From Phycisphaeraceae bacterium (GTDB lineage Bacteria > Planctomycetota > Phycisphaerae > Phycisphaerales > UBA1924): a DNA stretch of 64,000 bases. The notes under the pieces are model-generated. The model saw only the letters and a list, made by a program, of their open reading frames with translations. It had not been told where the DNA came from and did not search any database. The stretch covers positions 1 through 64,000 of the forward strand of contig RECQ01000044.1 of the NCBI GenBank assembly GCA_007693965.1, read 5' to 3'. Made by a program: the position numbers and the translations under genes. Below are positions 32,647 to 36,021 of this stretch, piece after piece. The first letter of the stretch is position 1. Each line of letters starts with the position of its first letter.

Positions 32647-35600
32647 ATGCCCGTCCAGCCCCAGACATCCGCCGCGCGAACGCTCTCCGCCGCCGAAATC
32701 CGGCGTCAGTTCATCGACTTTTTCATCGAGCGCCACGGCCACACCTTCGTCCCCAGCTCGCCCGTCGTCCCCCACGACGATCCGACGCTCCTCTTCACCA
32801 ACGCCGGTATGAACCAGTTCAAGCCCATCTTCCTCGGCCAGGCCGATCCGGGAAGCGAGATGGGGCGGCTGAAGCGCGCGGTGAACAGCCAGAAGTGCAT
32901 CCGCGCCGGCGGCAAGCACAACGACCTCGACGATGTCGGCAAGGACCTCTATCACCACACCTTCTTCGAGATGCTCGGCAACTGGTCCTTCGGCGACTAC
33001 TTTAAAGCCGAGGCGATCGCGTGGGCGTGGGAGCTCTTCACCGAAGTCTGGGGCCTCGACCCCGAGCGGCTGTACGCCACCTACTTCCAGGGCAGCAAAC
33101 CCGAGGGCCTCGAGCCGGACCGCGAGGCGTACGAGCTGTGGCAGCGCCACCTGCCGGCGCAGCGCATCCTGCCCGGCGACATGAAGGACAACTTCTGGGA
33201 GATGGGCGACACCGGTCCCTGCGGCCCGTGCTCGGAGATCCACTACGACGGCCGCAGCGACGAGGAGCGGGCTCGCACGCCCGGCCACAACCTCGTCAAC
33301 CGCGAGAGCCCGGATGTGATCGAGCTGTGGAACCTGGTGTTCATCCAGTTCAATAAGGATTATACTTCTAAAGGCCTCGAACATCTGCGTCTCAGCAAAG
33401 AGGCCGACTCTGCCAAGGAGCGGGTCCGTCAACGACAGTTAGCGTTGGAGAACAGGCATCTCCTAAATCTTCCAGCGTGCCATGTAGACACTGGTATGGG
33501 GCTGGAGCGCATCACGCGGGTCTTGCAGGGCAAGCAGAGCAACTACGACACGGATGTGTTCACGCCGCTGTTCGAGCGGATATCGAAGGTGTGCGCGGCG
33601 CCGCCGTATGGCGGGAAGCTGGATGATCCGAAGGACATCGCCTACCGCGTGATCGCCGATCACATCCGCACGCTCTCATTCGCGATCGCGGACGGGGCGG
33701 ATCCGGGGAACGATGGGCGCAACTACGTCCTGCGGCGGATCCTGCGTCGGGCGGTGAAGTACGGCCACCAGAACCTCGAAGCGCGCGGGCCGTTCCTGTG
33801 CGAGCTGGTTCCCACCGTTATTGAAACGATGGGGGAGTTTTTCCCGGAGCTGAAGAAGGAGCCGGCGCGGATCATGAGTGTGATTCGGGATGAGGAGGTA
33901 GCGTTTGGAAGAACGTGGCACGAAGGAATGACTCGGACCAGTGCCTTGAGCGAGAGACACCAAGCACAAATTAGTGCAATAACGAGCACATTAGAGACGT
34001 ATTTACAACCCATGAAAGGATTTAATGACGCAGTTGGTCATGTATTGAAAGACGTTGGACTCCGCTCCTCTGTTCCGATTCAAGAGATGACGAAGTTTTT
34101 TTATGAGTTTAATCGTTCTTTATCTGAAGCAATCCAGACCGCAATCCAACCAATGGCTATAGATCTTGAACGCGTGATCAAAGAAGCCAAGCAGACGATG
34201 GATCAAATTGAAGCGGCTATTGCCAAATTCGAACTAGATGCAGGACGAGAAGAGGCGACCAGAATCAGAGCGAAGATTGACGAATTGTCTCCGGCTTCCA
34301 TTATACAGTTGCTCGATCATCTCAATGAAGCGCGGTCAATTTCCGCAGAAGATGCCTTTGTTCTCCACGACACCTACGGCTTCCCCATCGATCTCACGCA
34401 GATCATGGCCGAGGAGCGCGGCCTGACCGTCGATGTCGAGGGCTTCAACCGTCTCATGGAGGAGGCCCGCGAAAAGGCCCGCTCCGGCGGCGCGGCGGCC
34501 GAGCAGGCGCACCCCGCATCGACGCTCCCCGGCGACGCCGTCGCGCGGCTCAACAATCTCAGGATCAAGCCGACGAACGACGAGGCCAAGTTCGAGAACA
34601 AATCAATCCGCACCGACGTGCGCGCCATCTGGAACGGGACCGACTTCGACGAGAACGTCTATGCCACCCACATGAAGCCCGGCGACCGCATCGGCGTCGT
34701 CCTCGACCGCACCTGCTTCTACGCCGAGATGGGCGGGCAGGTCGGCGATGCGGGGCGCCTCGTCGTCACGCGCGAGGCGCAATCCAGCGTGCGCGACGGC
34801 GCCACCGGCGGCGAGATGCGCATTGAAGACACGCGCGCCTTCGGCGGCTACGTGCTCCACATCGGCCGCGTCAGCAAGGGCGAGATCCGCGTGGGCGACC
34901 AGGTCTCGTGCGAGGTCGAGAAGAGGCGCCGCGCTGCGATCATGGCCAACCACACCGGCACGCACCTGCTCAACTTCGCATTGCGCGAGGCGCTGGGCGA
35001 GCGCGTCGAGCAGAAGGGCTCGCTGGTGGCGCCCGACCGACTGCGGTTCGATTTCAGCCACGCCGCCGCGGTGAAACCGGAGGAGATGGAGCGGATCGAA
35101 GCCATCGTGCGCGAGAAGATCATCCTCAACCTGCCCGTCTGCACCGACACGGCGCCGCTGCCACTCGCGAAGAAGGTCAACGGCCTGCGGGCTGTCTTCG
35201 GCGAGGCGTACCCCGACCCGGTGCGCATCGTCTCCATCGGCGCCCCCGTCTCGGCGCTGGTGCAGGAGCCGGATTCCGACAGTTGGCGCAAGCTCTCCAT
35301 CGAGCTCTGCGGCGGGACGCACGTCGAGACCACCAGCGAGATCGAGCATTTCGTGATCACGGAAGAATCGGGCATCGCCAAGGGCGTGCGCCGCATGGCG
35401 GCGCTGACCGGCGCCGCGGCGGGCGAGTCGATCGAGAGCGCCCGCGCCATCGAGCTCGCCCTCGACGAGGCGAAAAAACTCGATGACGACGCCATCGAAG
35501 CCCGCGCAACCGATTTTCTGCACCAGATCGAAGCCGCCACACTCCCCCTCGGCGCCCGGCGCCTGTTGGGGCAGAAGCTGGAGGCGTTGCAGGAACGTAT

Positions 35601-36021
35601 TAAGGCGGCGAAGAAGCAGCACGCCGCGGCGGGAAGAGAAGCCGCGGTCGATGCGGCCCGGCGCATCGCCGAGAGCGCGCAGGGAACAGTGATCGTCGAG
35701 GCCCTGCCCGGCGACGACGCCGGCGCCGATCGTCAGGCGATGCTGAGCGCGCTGGACGCGATTCGCGCGAAGCGCGCCGAGAGCGCTGTCATGCTCCTCG
35801 GCGCCGATCGGGAGAATGGCAAGGTGACGATCGTGGCCAACGTACCCAAGGAATTGATCAACAAGGGGCTGAAGGCCGGCGACTGGGTCCGCGCCGCCGC
35901 CGAAGCCTGCGGCGGCAAGGGCGGCGGGCGCCCGGATTCCGCCCAGGGCGGCGGCACGCAGCCGGAGAAGATGGGCGACGCGATCGAAGCGGCGAAGACG
36001 TTCGCGAAATCGAAGCTCTGA
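32647..36021 (+). CDS. alaS: Alanine-tRNA ligase with two AT-rich insertions
   Basis: Charges tRNA-Ala and edits mischarged Ser/Gly. The class II core is intact: FTNAGMNQFKPIFLG, FFEMLGNWSFGDYFK, FWEMGDTGPCGPCSEIHYD, HVDTGMGLERI and DGRNYVLRRILRRAVKYG. Editing-site residues are N-H-T-G-T-H-L-L-N and C-G-G-T-H-V-E, and the C-terminal oligomerisation domain is present. The product is about 1124 residues against about 880 usual. Two extra segments explain most of this: about residues 237-276 (after WNLVFIQFNKD) and about 427-566 (between FGRTWHEGM and EDAFVLHDTYGFP). Both are far more AT-rich than the gene. Frame is maintained throughout. Confidence 0.95.
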   Translation: MPVQPQTSAARTLSAAEIRRQFIDFFIERHGHTFVPSSPVVPHDDPTLLFTNAGMNQFKPIFLGQADPGSEMGRLKRAVNSQKCIRAGGKHNDLDDVGKDLYHHTFFEMLGNWSFGDYFKAEAIAWAWELFTEVWGLDPERLYATYFQGSKPEGLEPDREAYELWQRHLPAQRILPGDMKDNFWEMGDTGPCGPCSEIHYDGRSDEERARTPGHNLVNRESPDVIELWNLVFIQFNKDYTSKGLEHLRLSKEADSAKERVRQRQLALENRHLLNLPACHVDTGMGLERITRVLQGKQSNYDTDVFTPLFERISKVCAAPPYGGKLDDPKDIAYRVIADHIRTLSFAIADGADPGNDGRNYVLRRILRRAVKYGHQNLEARGPFLCELVPTVIETMGEFFPELKKEPARIMSVIRDEEVAFGRTWHEGMTRTSALSERHQAQISAITSTLETYLQPMKGFNDAVGHVLKDVGLRSSVPIQEMTKFFYEFNRSLSEAIQTAIQPMAIDLERVIKEAKQTMDQIEAAIAKFELDAGREEATRIRAKIDELSPASIIQLLDHLNEARSISAEDAFVLHDTYGFPIDLTQIMAEERGLTVDVEGFNRLMEEAREKARSGGAAAEQAHPASTLPGDAVARLNNLRIKPTNDEAKFENKSIRTDVRAIWNGTDFDENVYATHMKPGDRIGVVLDRTCFYAEMGGQVGDAGRLVVTREAQSSVRDGATGGEMRIEDTRAFGGYVLHIGRVSKGEIRVGDQVSCEVEKRRRAAIMANHTGTHLLNFALREALGERVEQKGSLVAPDRLRFDFSHAAAVKPEEMERIEAIVREKIILNLPVCTDTAPLPLAKKVNGLRAVFGEAYPDPVRIVSIGAPVSALVQEPDSDSWRKLSIELCGGTHVETTSEIEHFVITEESGIAKGVRRMAALTGAAAGESIESARAIELALDEAKKLDDDAIEARATDFLHQIEAATLPLGARRLLGQKLEALQERIKAAKKQHAAAGREAAVDAARRIAESAQGTVIVEALPGDDAGADRQAMLSALDAIRAKRAESAVMLLGADRENGKVTIVANVPKELINKGLKAGDWVRAAAEACGGKGGGRPDSAQGGGTQPEKMGDAIEAAKTFAKSKL

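Follow-up and report, generated by a model that had tools for sequence, protein, structure and literature searches.

Among the aminoacyl-tRNA synthetases (aaRS), alanyl-tRNA synthetase (AlaRS) is described as an enzyme whose architecture hardly changes (PMC10036535). The window analysed here, a stretch of 64,000 nucleotides (positions 1 to 64,000, forward strand) of contig RECQ01000044.1 from the Phycisphaeraceae bacterium assembly GCA_007693965.1, contains an alaS gene that carries 142 AT-rich residues in frame, which raises the question of what this segment is, where it came from and why an essential enzyme keeps it. The insert is a translated, probably helical module in a loop of the tRNA-recognition domain of AlaRS. 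Across the planctomycete family this loop acts like a cassette site, at which a short linker is repeatedly replaced by longer, mostly unrelated modules.

The insert and its surroundings in AlaRS

The features on which the argument depends are the following.

32647..36021, forward strand: alaS, alanyl-tRNA synthetase of 1124 aa with two inserts (Pfam, PDB matches, Foldseek)
33709..33711, forward strand: Asn355, by alignment the U70-contacting Asn (N303 in E. coli)
33928..34353, forward strand: the 142-residue insert, residues 428-569 (alignments, GC content at third codon positions (GC3), AlphaFold helices)
34366..34380, forward strand: H574-D575-T576-Y577-G578, the G3:U70 minor-groove peptide (alignment, translation)

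The catalytic, tRNA_SAD and DHHA1 domains are all present in the product, which is thus an AlaRS by domain content: PF01411 (E 1.5e-187), PF07973 (tRNA_SAD) and PF02272 (DHHA1) each score above the Pfam cut-off, sequence search finds AlaRS entries in the PDB, and Foldseek with whole models returned AlaRS and related chains among the top 50 per model. The gene is the single match in its source genome, which consists of 74 contigs and of which a sample of 811 kb (23%) was used for genome-wide statistics. Below, L-numbers designate individual alaS loci or inserts, and G-numbers the genomes of relatives.

In alignments with 60 fetched relatives and 80 named loci (overlapping sets), the insert stands where the linker usually has 17-32 residues, with the conserved FGRT...G helix before it and AF.L.DTYGFP after it, and the reading frame stays open through it and is kept on both sides. 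The original prediction, made from the sequence alone, had called an in-frame insertion in alaS at 33925-34345, correct within a few bases; its short ordinary linker and its hand counts (154/360 GC at 33961-34320 and 38/60 at 34381-34440) were likewise borne out. It erred in setting the segment between the catalytic and tRNA-recognition regions, for the insert is part of the tRNA-recognition domain itself.

This location is close to the residues that recognise tRNA-Ala. N303 and D400 read G3:U70 in E. coli AlaRS (PMC10036535), and in the A. fulgidus enzyme the peptide with Asp450 is described as fitting the minor groove at G3:U70 (PMC6451123). In the window AlaRS, the G3:U70 readers are, by alignment, Asn355 and Asp575; the insert falls between them and ends four residues before the H574-G578 peptide. 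Asn355 is kept in at least 90% of 63 aligned AlaRS, and its neighbours G357-R358 and Y360-R363 are invariant. The window peptide, His-Asp-Thr-Tyr-Gly, has His instead of Tyr at its first residue, a one-residue departure from the published description that leaves the AlaRS identity not in doubt; across 119 AlaRS, the peptide starts with His in 40 and with Phe in a single sequence. In L097 it reads HGTHG, with the Asp lost, within an AT-rich tract. The sole tRNA-Ala found in the 811 kb (GGC) has G3 and U70, and other isoacceptors were not seen in this 23% of the genome.

The distance of only four residues to the G3:U70-reading peptide would suit a specialised AlaRS function, in which some lineages gain through the insert an additional contact, either with tRNA-Ala or with a partner protein. 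Considering that the inserts are patchy inside genera and mostly unrelated in sequence, and that the one tRNA-Ala found is ordinary, this explanation is improbable.

The composition of the insert sets it apart from its gene and from its genome. Its GC content is 44.4% (189/426), or 52.8/38.7/41.5% by codon position against 66.4/44.8/86.0% in the rest of alaS, confirming the A/T-rich third positions noticed earlier. Across 589 genes called in the 811 kb by a simple caller that favours GC3-rich genes, a scan that wholly AT-rich foreign genes may escape, no 100-codon window has a lower GC3 than one in the insert (0.36); the next-lowest is 0.46. Among 15,895 windows of 426 bp from the same sample, only two are as AT-rich, and these are the insert itself. 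It is unlikely that relaxed codon selection alone caused the low GC3, given an intergenic GC of 62.4% in the 811 kb, with the reservation that intergenic DNA is not strictly neutral. A low-GC3 stretch (GC3 0.54) was also observed near codon 737 of a large gene at 8416-11647 of L224, the product of which by eye resembles a restriction-modification protein.

The AlphaFold models were built from 63 rows (the window together with 62 loci out of the 80 named ones) and from 34 rows. For the window insert, helices are predicted at 406-469, 476-500, 507-532, 534-547 and 549-562, with block predicted local distance difference test (pLDDT) values of 58-90 and a predicted template modelling score of 0.62. 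The helical stretch proposed from the sequence is thus reproduced as a prediction of moderate confidence.

Other classes of inserted element were considered. An intein family was absent among the Pfam matches at E<=1, the junction residues having been judged by eye only, and a structured intron or catalytic RNA was rejected, no Rfam match reaching the gathering score over 33200-34500. Rickettsia palindromic elements are a type of repetitive in-frame element; an element of this repetitive kind was rejected in view of the lack of further genome copies and of an edge repeat at either side of the insert. Only weak matches were obtained in Pfam, PHROGs and PADLOC, those in Pfam below the cut-off, and the PDB searched by sequence gave none up to E 10.

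An assembly or binning artefact might be suspected in a 74-contig genome. However, the frame is intact on both sides, alaS exists in one copy, and independent assemblies have long inserts at the same site, including the 3.49-Mb contig of L096 and the 2-contig genome G133, so that assembly error is unlikely as a general cause and extremely unlikely for the window.

Recurrence and kinship of the inserts

The distribution of the insert was followed with a 93-residue canonical fragment, which matched 150 of the 163 family genomes searched. A long insert, scored where only the downstream half matched, occurs in 33 of the 150 (the row of G038 is absent from the counted table); 28 of the 33 were fetched individually, and five were equated by frame length with loci already in the set. 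The pattern is patchy inside genera, since G505 is the only carrier of four genomes in g341, G483 the only one of three matched in g57 and G133 the only one of seven in g23. Outside the family, two further families of the same order have long inserts as well (G064 and G077). In a survey of the phylum with the linker fragment, 277 of 294 genomes gave a match; the matches listed extend to about E 4e-15 and give no count of long inserts. Three partial matches from this survey were retrieved: G077 has a 76-residue segment with a GC3 of 43% against 83%, and the linkers of G207 and G380 are moderately longer only. AlaRS from viral contigs, several of them near-duplicates, have 20-24 residues at the site in all 20 measured of 24 loci.

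A tree was built from 127 AlaRS with both insert sites of the window gene removed. On it the 32 long inserts require at least 21 changes between long and short, or 23 with insert clusters as states; on an earlier tree of 114 rows, 15 low-GC3 inserts required 15 changes and were all singletons. Sister pairs that differ in the insert are as close as 0.04 (L096/L194), 0.064 (L098/L086) and 0.088 (L177/L173). L098 and L150 have linkers of 108 and 31 residues flanked by identical codons (14 shown before and 16 shown after), and farther from the linker their identity is 86-98%. The nearest relatives of the window alaS on the tree, G052 and G040, have 22 and 17 residues at the site, and its nearest insert-free sister lies at 0.61 substitutions per site. 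In G001, the insert is equally long (142 aa) and AT-rich too (GC3 46.5% against 72.5%).

Such length changes are confined within AlaRS: internal insertions of at least 25 aa occur at two sites only among the 127 sequences, both occupied in the window, and other long runs were at the N-terminus, uncertain, and set apart. As controls, rpoC matched in 40 of 41 genomes, with a break of about 32 codons in two (G006 and G033) and several genes cut by contig ends, and methionyl-tRNA synthetase (MetRS) matched in 61 of 61, in G025 only at E 5e-4, with eight split matches leaving up to about 49 codons between pieces. Because MetRS varies in length as well, the gene of G024 being longer by a net 68 codons or so, it is a weak control.

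Taken together, gain, loss or exchange of the module at this site seems to have happened many times in the planctomycete family. The original prediction had offered either a recent foreign insertion or a clade-specific domain; a foreign-looking composition and a clade-typical site were both found, but the inserts go back neither to one recent event nor to one old domain. Nor do close relatives all carry the same segment with ordinary GC, as the short linkers of G052 and G040 demonstrate.

Several observations were made in passing. L276, L277 and L278 come from viral contigs (89-411 kb) and have an open frame of 464 residues that matches only query residues 11-612, read as a phage or virus mini-AlaRS, Tupanvirus-like. 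The alaS genes of L122, L139 and L147 group with Phycisphaerales (L139 via L065, a contig of equal length) in records labelled Leptolyngbya, Cyanobacteria and Limnohabitans, which are apparently mislabelled or mixed bins. In G501, alaS with the same insert lies on two contig ends (the end of C18 and the start of C7; L186 and L187), probably one gene split by assembly.

By hhalign, the inserts are mostly unrelated in sequence. L102 and L178, both assigned to g59, have unrelated inserts, and that of L178 is related to the insert of the distant L082 (95%); the inserts of L069 and L098, from different clades, are related (97%), as are those of G479 (L190) and G488 (L270) from different genera (phmmer E 7.6e-14). 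Unrelated inserts within g59 together with related ones in distant clades are better explained by swapping than by vertical descent. The similarity of the 142-aa inserts of the window and G001 is marginal at the sequence level: the global alignment (z 3.9) was equalled by 0 of 2000 shuffles and phmmer gave E 0.013-0.015, while the local alignment was equalled by 26 of 2000 shuffles, blastp gave E 0.30 and hhalign gave no support. The insert of G479 matches NOV_C (PF13020) at 22.6 bits against a cut-off of 22.1; the related insert of G488 matches none of the Pfam families, and the window insert has no Pfam match to NOV_C. Both L190 and L270 keep by eye a D...E.K pattern resembling a nuclease core.

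Alternatively, all inserts might derive from one old, very fast-evolving helix-strand-helix domain that was lost repeatedly. Of 22 cluster representatives, five share a motif close to the end of the insert, [LIVMF][TNS]P..[hydrophobic] (LSPASI in the window), a hint that some inserts are remotely related; shuffles gave an expectation of 0.39 and a maximum of 5 across 2000, and the motif, picked after inspection, is a weak argument. The inserts of G479, G488 and G014 also seem to be akin, with phmmer E-values of 7.6e-14 and 0.0023 and an hhalign value of 72% for G014. On the other hand, an hhalign relation of at least 30% is absent for other pairs outside the named clusters, and the predicted folds differ, being helical in the window and a helix-three strands-helix mini-domain with a block pLDDT of 90-95 in L117. 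Moreover, each loss would have to restore an ordinary linker amid near-identical flanks, and the low GC3 is unexplained by such a domain itself. A single old domain is therefore doubtful.

Donors, selection and the preferred explanation

Low GC3 recurs among the inserts. Fifteen of the first 22 long inserts have a GC3 below 70% and differ from their gene body by a mean of -30 points, and the other seven, six of them from a 77-aa family, are not low; for 99 short linkers the mean difference is -2. A drop of at least 12 points was found in 18 of 33 distinct inserts, and in 20 of 35 when L266 and L270, added later, are included. In the window, the low-GC3 region is wider than the insert.

33877..34362, forward strand: AT-rich tract, comprising the insert, about 17 conserved codons upstream and perhaps 3 downstream (change-point likelihood)

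The upstream log-likelihood ratio (LLR) of this tract, 8.8, exceeds the maximum of 7.2 among 103 short-linker genes, and its downstream LLR, 2.4, falls between the 95th (1.8) and 99th (2.5) null percentiles, the null assuming a fixed 35-point drop. The tract enters conserved AlaRS codons in 5 of 18 cases above the short-linker maximum: upstream in L001 (8.8), L082 (8.8) and L181 (10.3), and downstream in L097 (10.8) and L099 (7.1), where the null maximum is 3.0. L074 and L190 narrowly exceed the downstream 99th percentile only. AT-rich tracts that run into conserved codons suggest that some donors were AT-richer alaS genes.

Every row listed in the search of the 163 family genomes is stop-free, with the proviso that inserts were read from open frames, so that broken ones would escape measurement. 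In the L185/L186 pair, the nonsynonymous and synonymous substitution rates (dN and dS) of the insert are 0.076 and 0.57, a ratio of about 0.13 over 62 codons compared with about 0.03 in the gene body. Six pairs of the 77-aa family gave ratios of 0.14-0.58, four of them at 0.2-0.3, all rough since dS exceeds 1 in five. The pairs L069/L098 (dS saturated), L082/L178 (about 0.40) and L001/L036 (about 0.54, doubtful alignment) are unusable for a claim of selection. Purifying selection acts on the one close insert pair and, roughly, on the 77-residue family; the claim extends to these and not to the window's own insert.

These data bear on the serious rival that the site is merely tolerant, the most permissive loop of AlaRS, to which recombination adds harmless in-frame foreign DNA. 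Most inserts are unrelated and were seen in no more than two of the genomes sampled, constraint is much stronger on the gene body than on the insert and the tRNA-reading residues are retained, and neutral tolerance explains much of the evidence with fewer assumptions. It fits poorly with the ratio of about 0.13 in the only close pair, with the persistence of the 77-aa type in 10 distinct sequences with a predicted fold at pLDDT 90-95, and with the stop-free rows of the family search. We regard it as possible, yet tentative.

The explanation we prefer, with about an even chance of being right, combines the cassette site with a surface module kept through conflict with an antagonist. Some modules would probably arrive via homologous recombination from AT-richer alaS alleles already carrying a module. 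The module would then change or shield the part of the AlaRS surface that lies close to the acceptor stem of the tRNA, leaving aminoacylation intact, and shifting selection by an antagonist, such as a phage protein, toxin or inhibitor, would keep it. An arms race with a factor that binds AlaRS close to the acceptor stem would explain the recurrence, site-specificity and patchiness of the inserts, the unrelated modules and the retained constraint. In this scheme the site, its recurrent and patchy occupation, the composition and the open frame are observed, and the donor type, the surface position and the function of the module are what we infer.

A number of results weigh against the conflict explanation. 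No antagonist, interaction or assay is known. A relative of the window insert was not found in viral contigs or plasmids, and phages yielded a single unconvincing match (E 0.2), and none to the G479 insert; one weak match in the 163 family genomes (E 0.003) and four in a 392-genome phylum sample (E 0.003-0.006) disclosed no source. In its own genome the insert occurs at its own place only, by DNA and protein, and the second copy that the original prediction had proposed to look for was not found. There is no clear GC3 drop in 15 of 33 inserts (ten of the 77-aa family, L048, L103, L185, L186 and L189), which indicates that the site can host an old stable domain and that AT-richness is not universal, and in L096, L098 and others the AT-rich tract ends at the insert edge. 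Insert dN/dS lies above gene-body dN/dS, the 77-aa ratios are rough as stated, and the window insert has no close relative.

A bolder version, in which AlaRS serves conflict modules that spread horizontally as a place to dock, is rather unlikely. The enzyme would repeatedly acquire small domains next to the face that reads the tRNA, one or more of them nuclease-like, and their AT-rich source alleles may ride mobile elements; an invader or toxin aimed at AlaRS or tRNA-Ala would thereby be blocked or sensed.

The window gene also has a second AT-rich insert, overlooked in the original prediction.

33352..33480, forward strand: second insert of 43 residues (236-278) where 13-14 are usual (alignments, composition, AlphaFold model)

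Its GC content is 51.2% and its GC3 53.5%. The AlphaFold model gives strands at 224-239 and 270-285 around helices at 241-252 and 256-268, so that a helical hairpin is predicted to cap a beta-hairpin. At the same site, relatives have 47 aa (L043, L180 and L193), 60 aa (L189 and L190) or 71-76 aa (L099 and L158), and these variants are also patchy among relatives.

Comparison with known systems

Variable segments in aaRS are generally known (PMC387263). A report of an AlaRS insert at this place was not found among the best hits of searches in the open-licence literature, and to our knowledge a swapped module here is new. Whole modules that differ within genera beside the classic G3:U70 identity readers are unexpected, and the site offers a natural experiment on the tolerance of an essential enzyme, on aaRS under attack in nature and on the recruitment of short domains. 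Closely related sister genomes, some carrying the insert and others lacking it, permit direct tests.

NOV_C, which we take to be DUF3883 with a PD-(D/E)XK label, is matched by the G479 insert only, the window insert showing no such match and the G488 insert reaching none of the Pfam families. DUF3883 has been termed a novel restriction endonuclease domain (PMC3710099).

Compared with AlaRS as described in PMC10036535 and PMC6451123, the window enzyme has the same domains and the Asn and Asp that read G3:U70, and many members of the planctomycete family differ from AlaRS generally in the variable insert of the tRNA-recognition domain. The split AlaRS of Nanoarchaeum equitans (PMC10036535) is also broken in this domain, but there the gene itself is split. 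The insertion domain of bacterial prolyl-tRNA synthetase (ProRS), as discussed in PMC387263, is likewise an insert in an aaRS, but one that is lasting and linked to editing, whereas the AlaRS site changes within genera. There is also a likeness to the segmentally variable genes of the same paper, which combine a conserved enzyme with a variable segment and for which diversifying pressure was proposed, ProRS being among the cases discussed. Judged without the authors' scoring, alaS is such a gene, a conserved protein with a variable segment. The filter described there discards alignments with large gaps, whereas the window site exchanges whole modules that differ in length and predicted fold and are often AT-rich.
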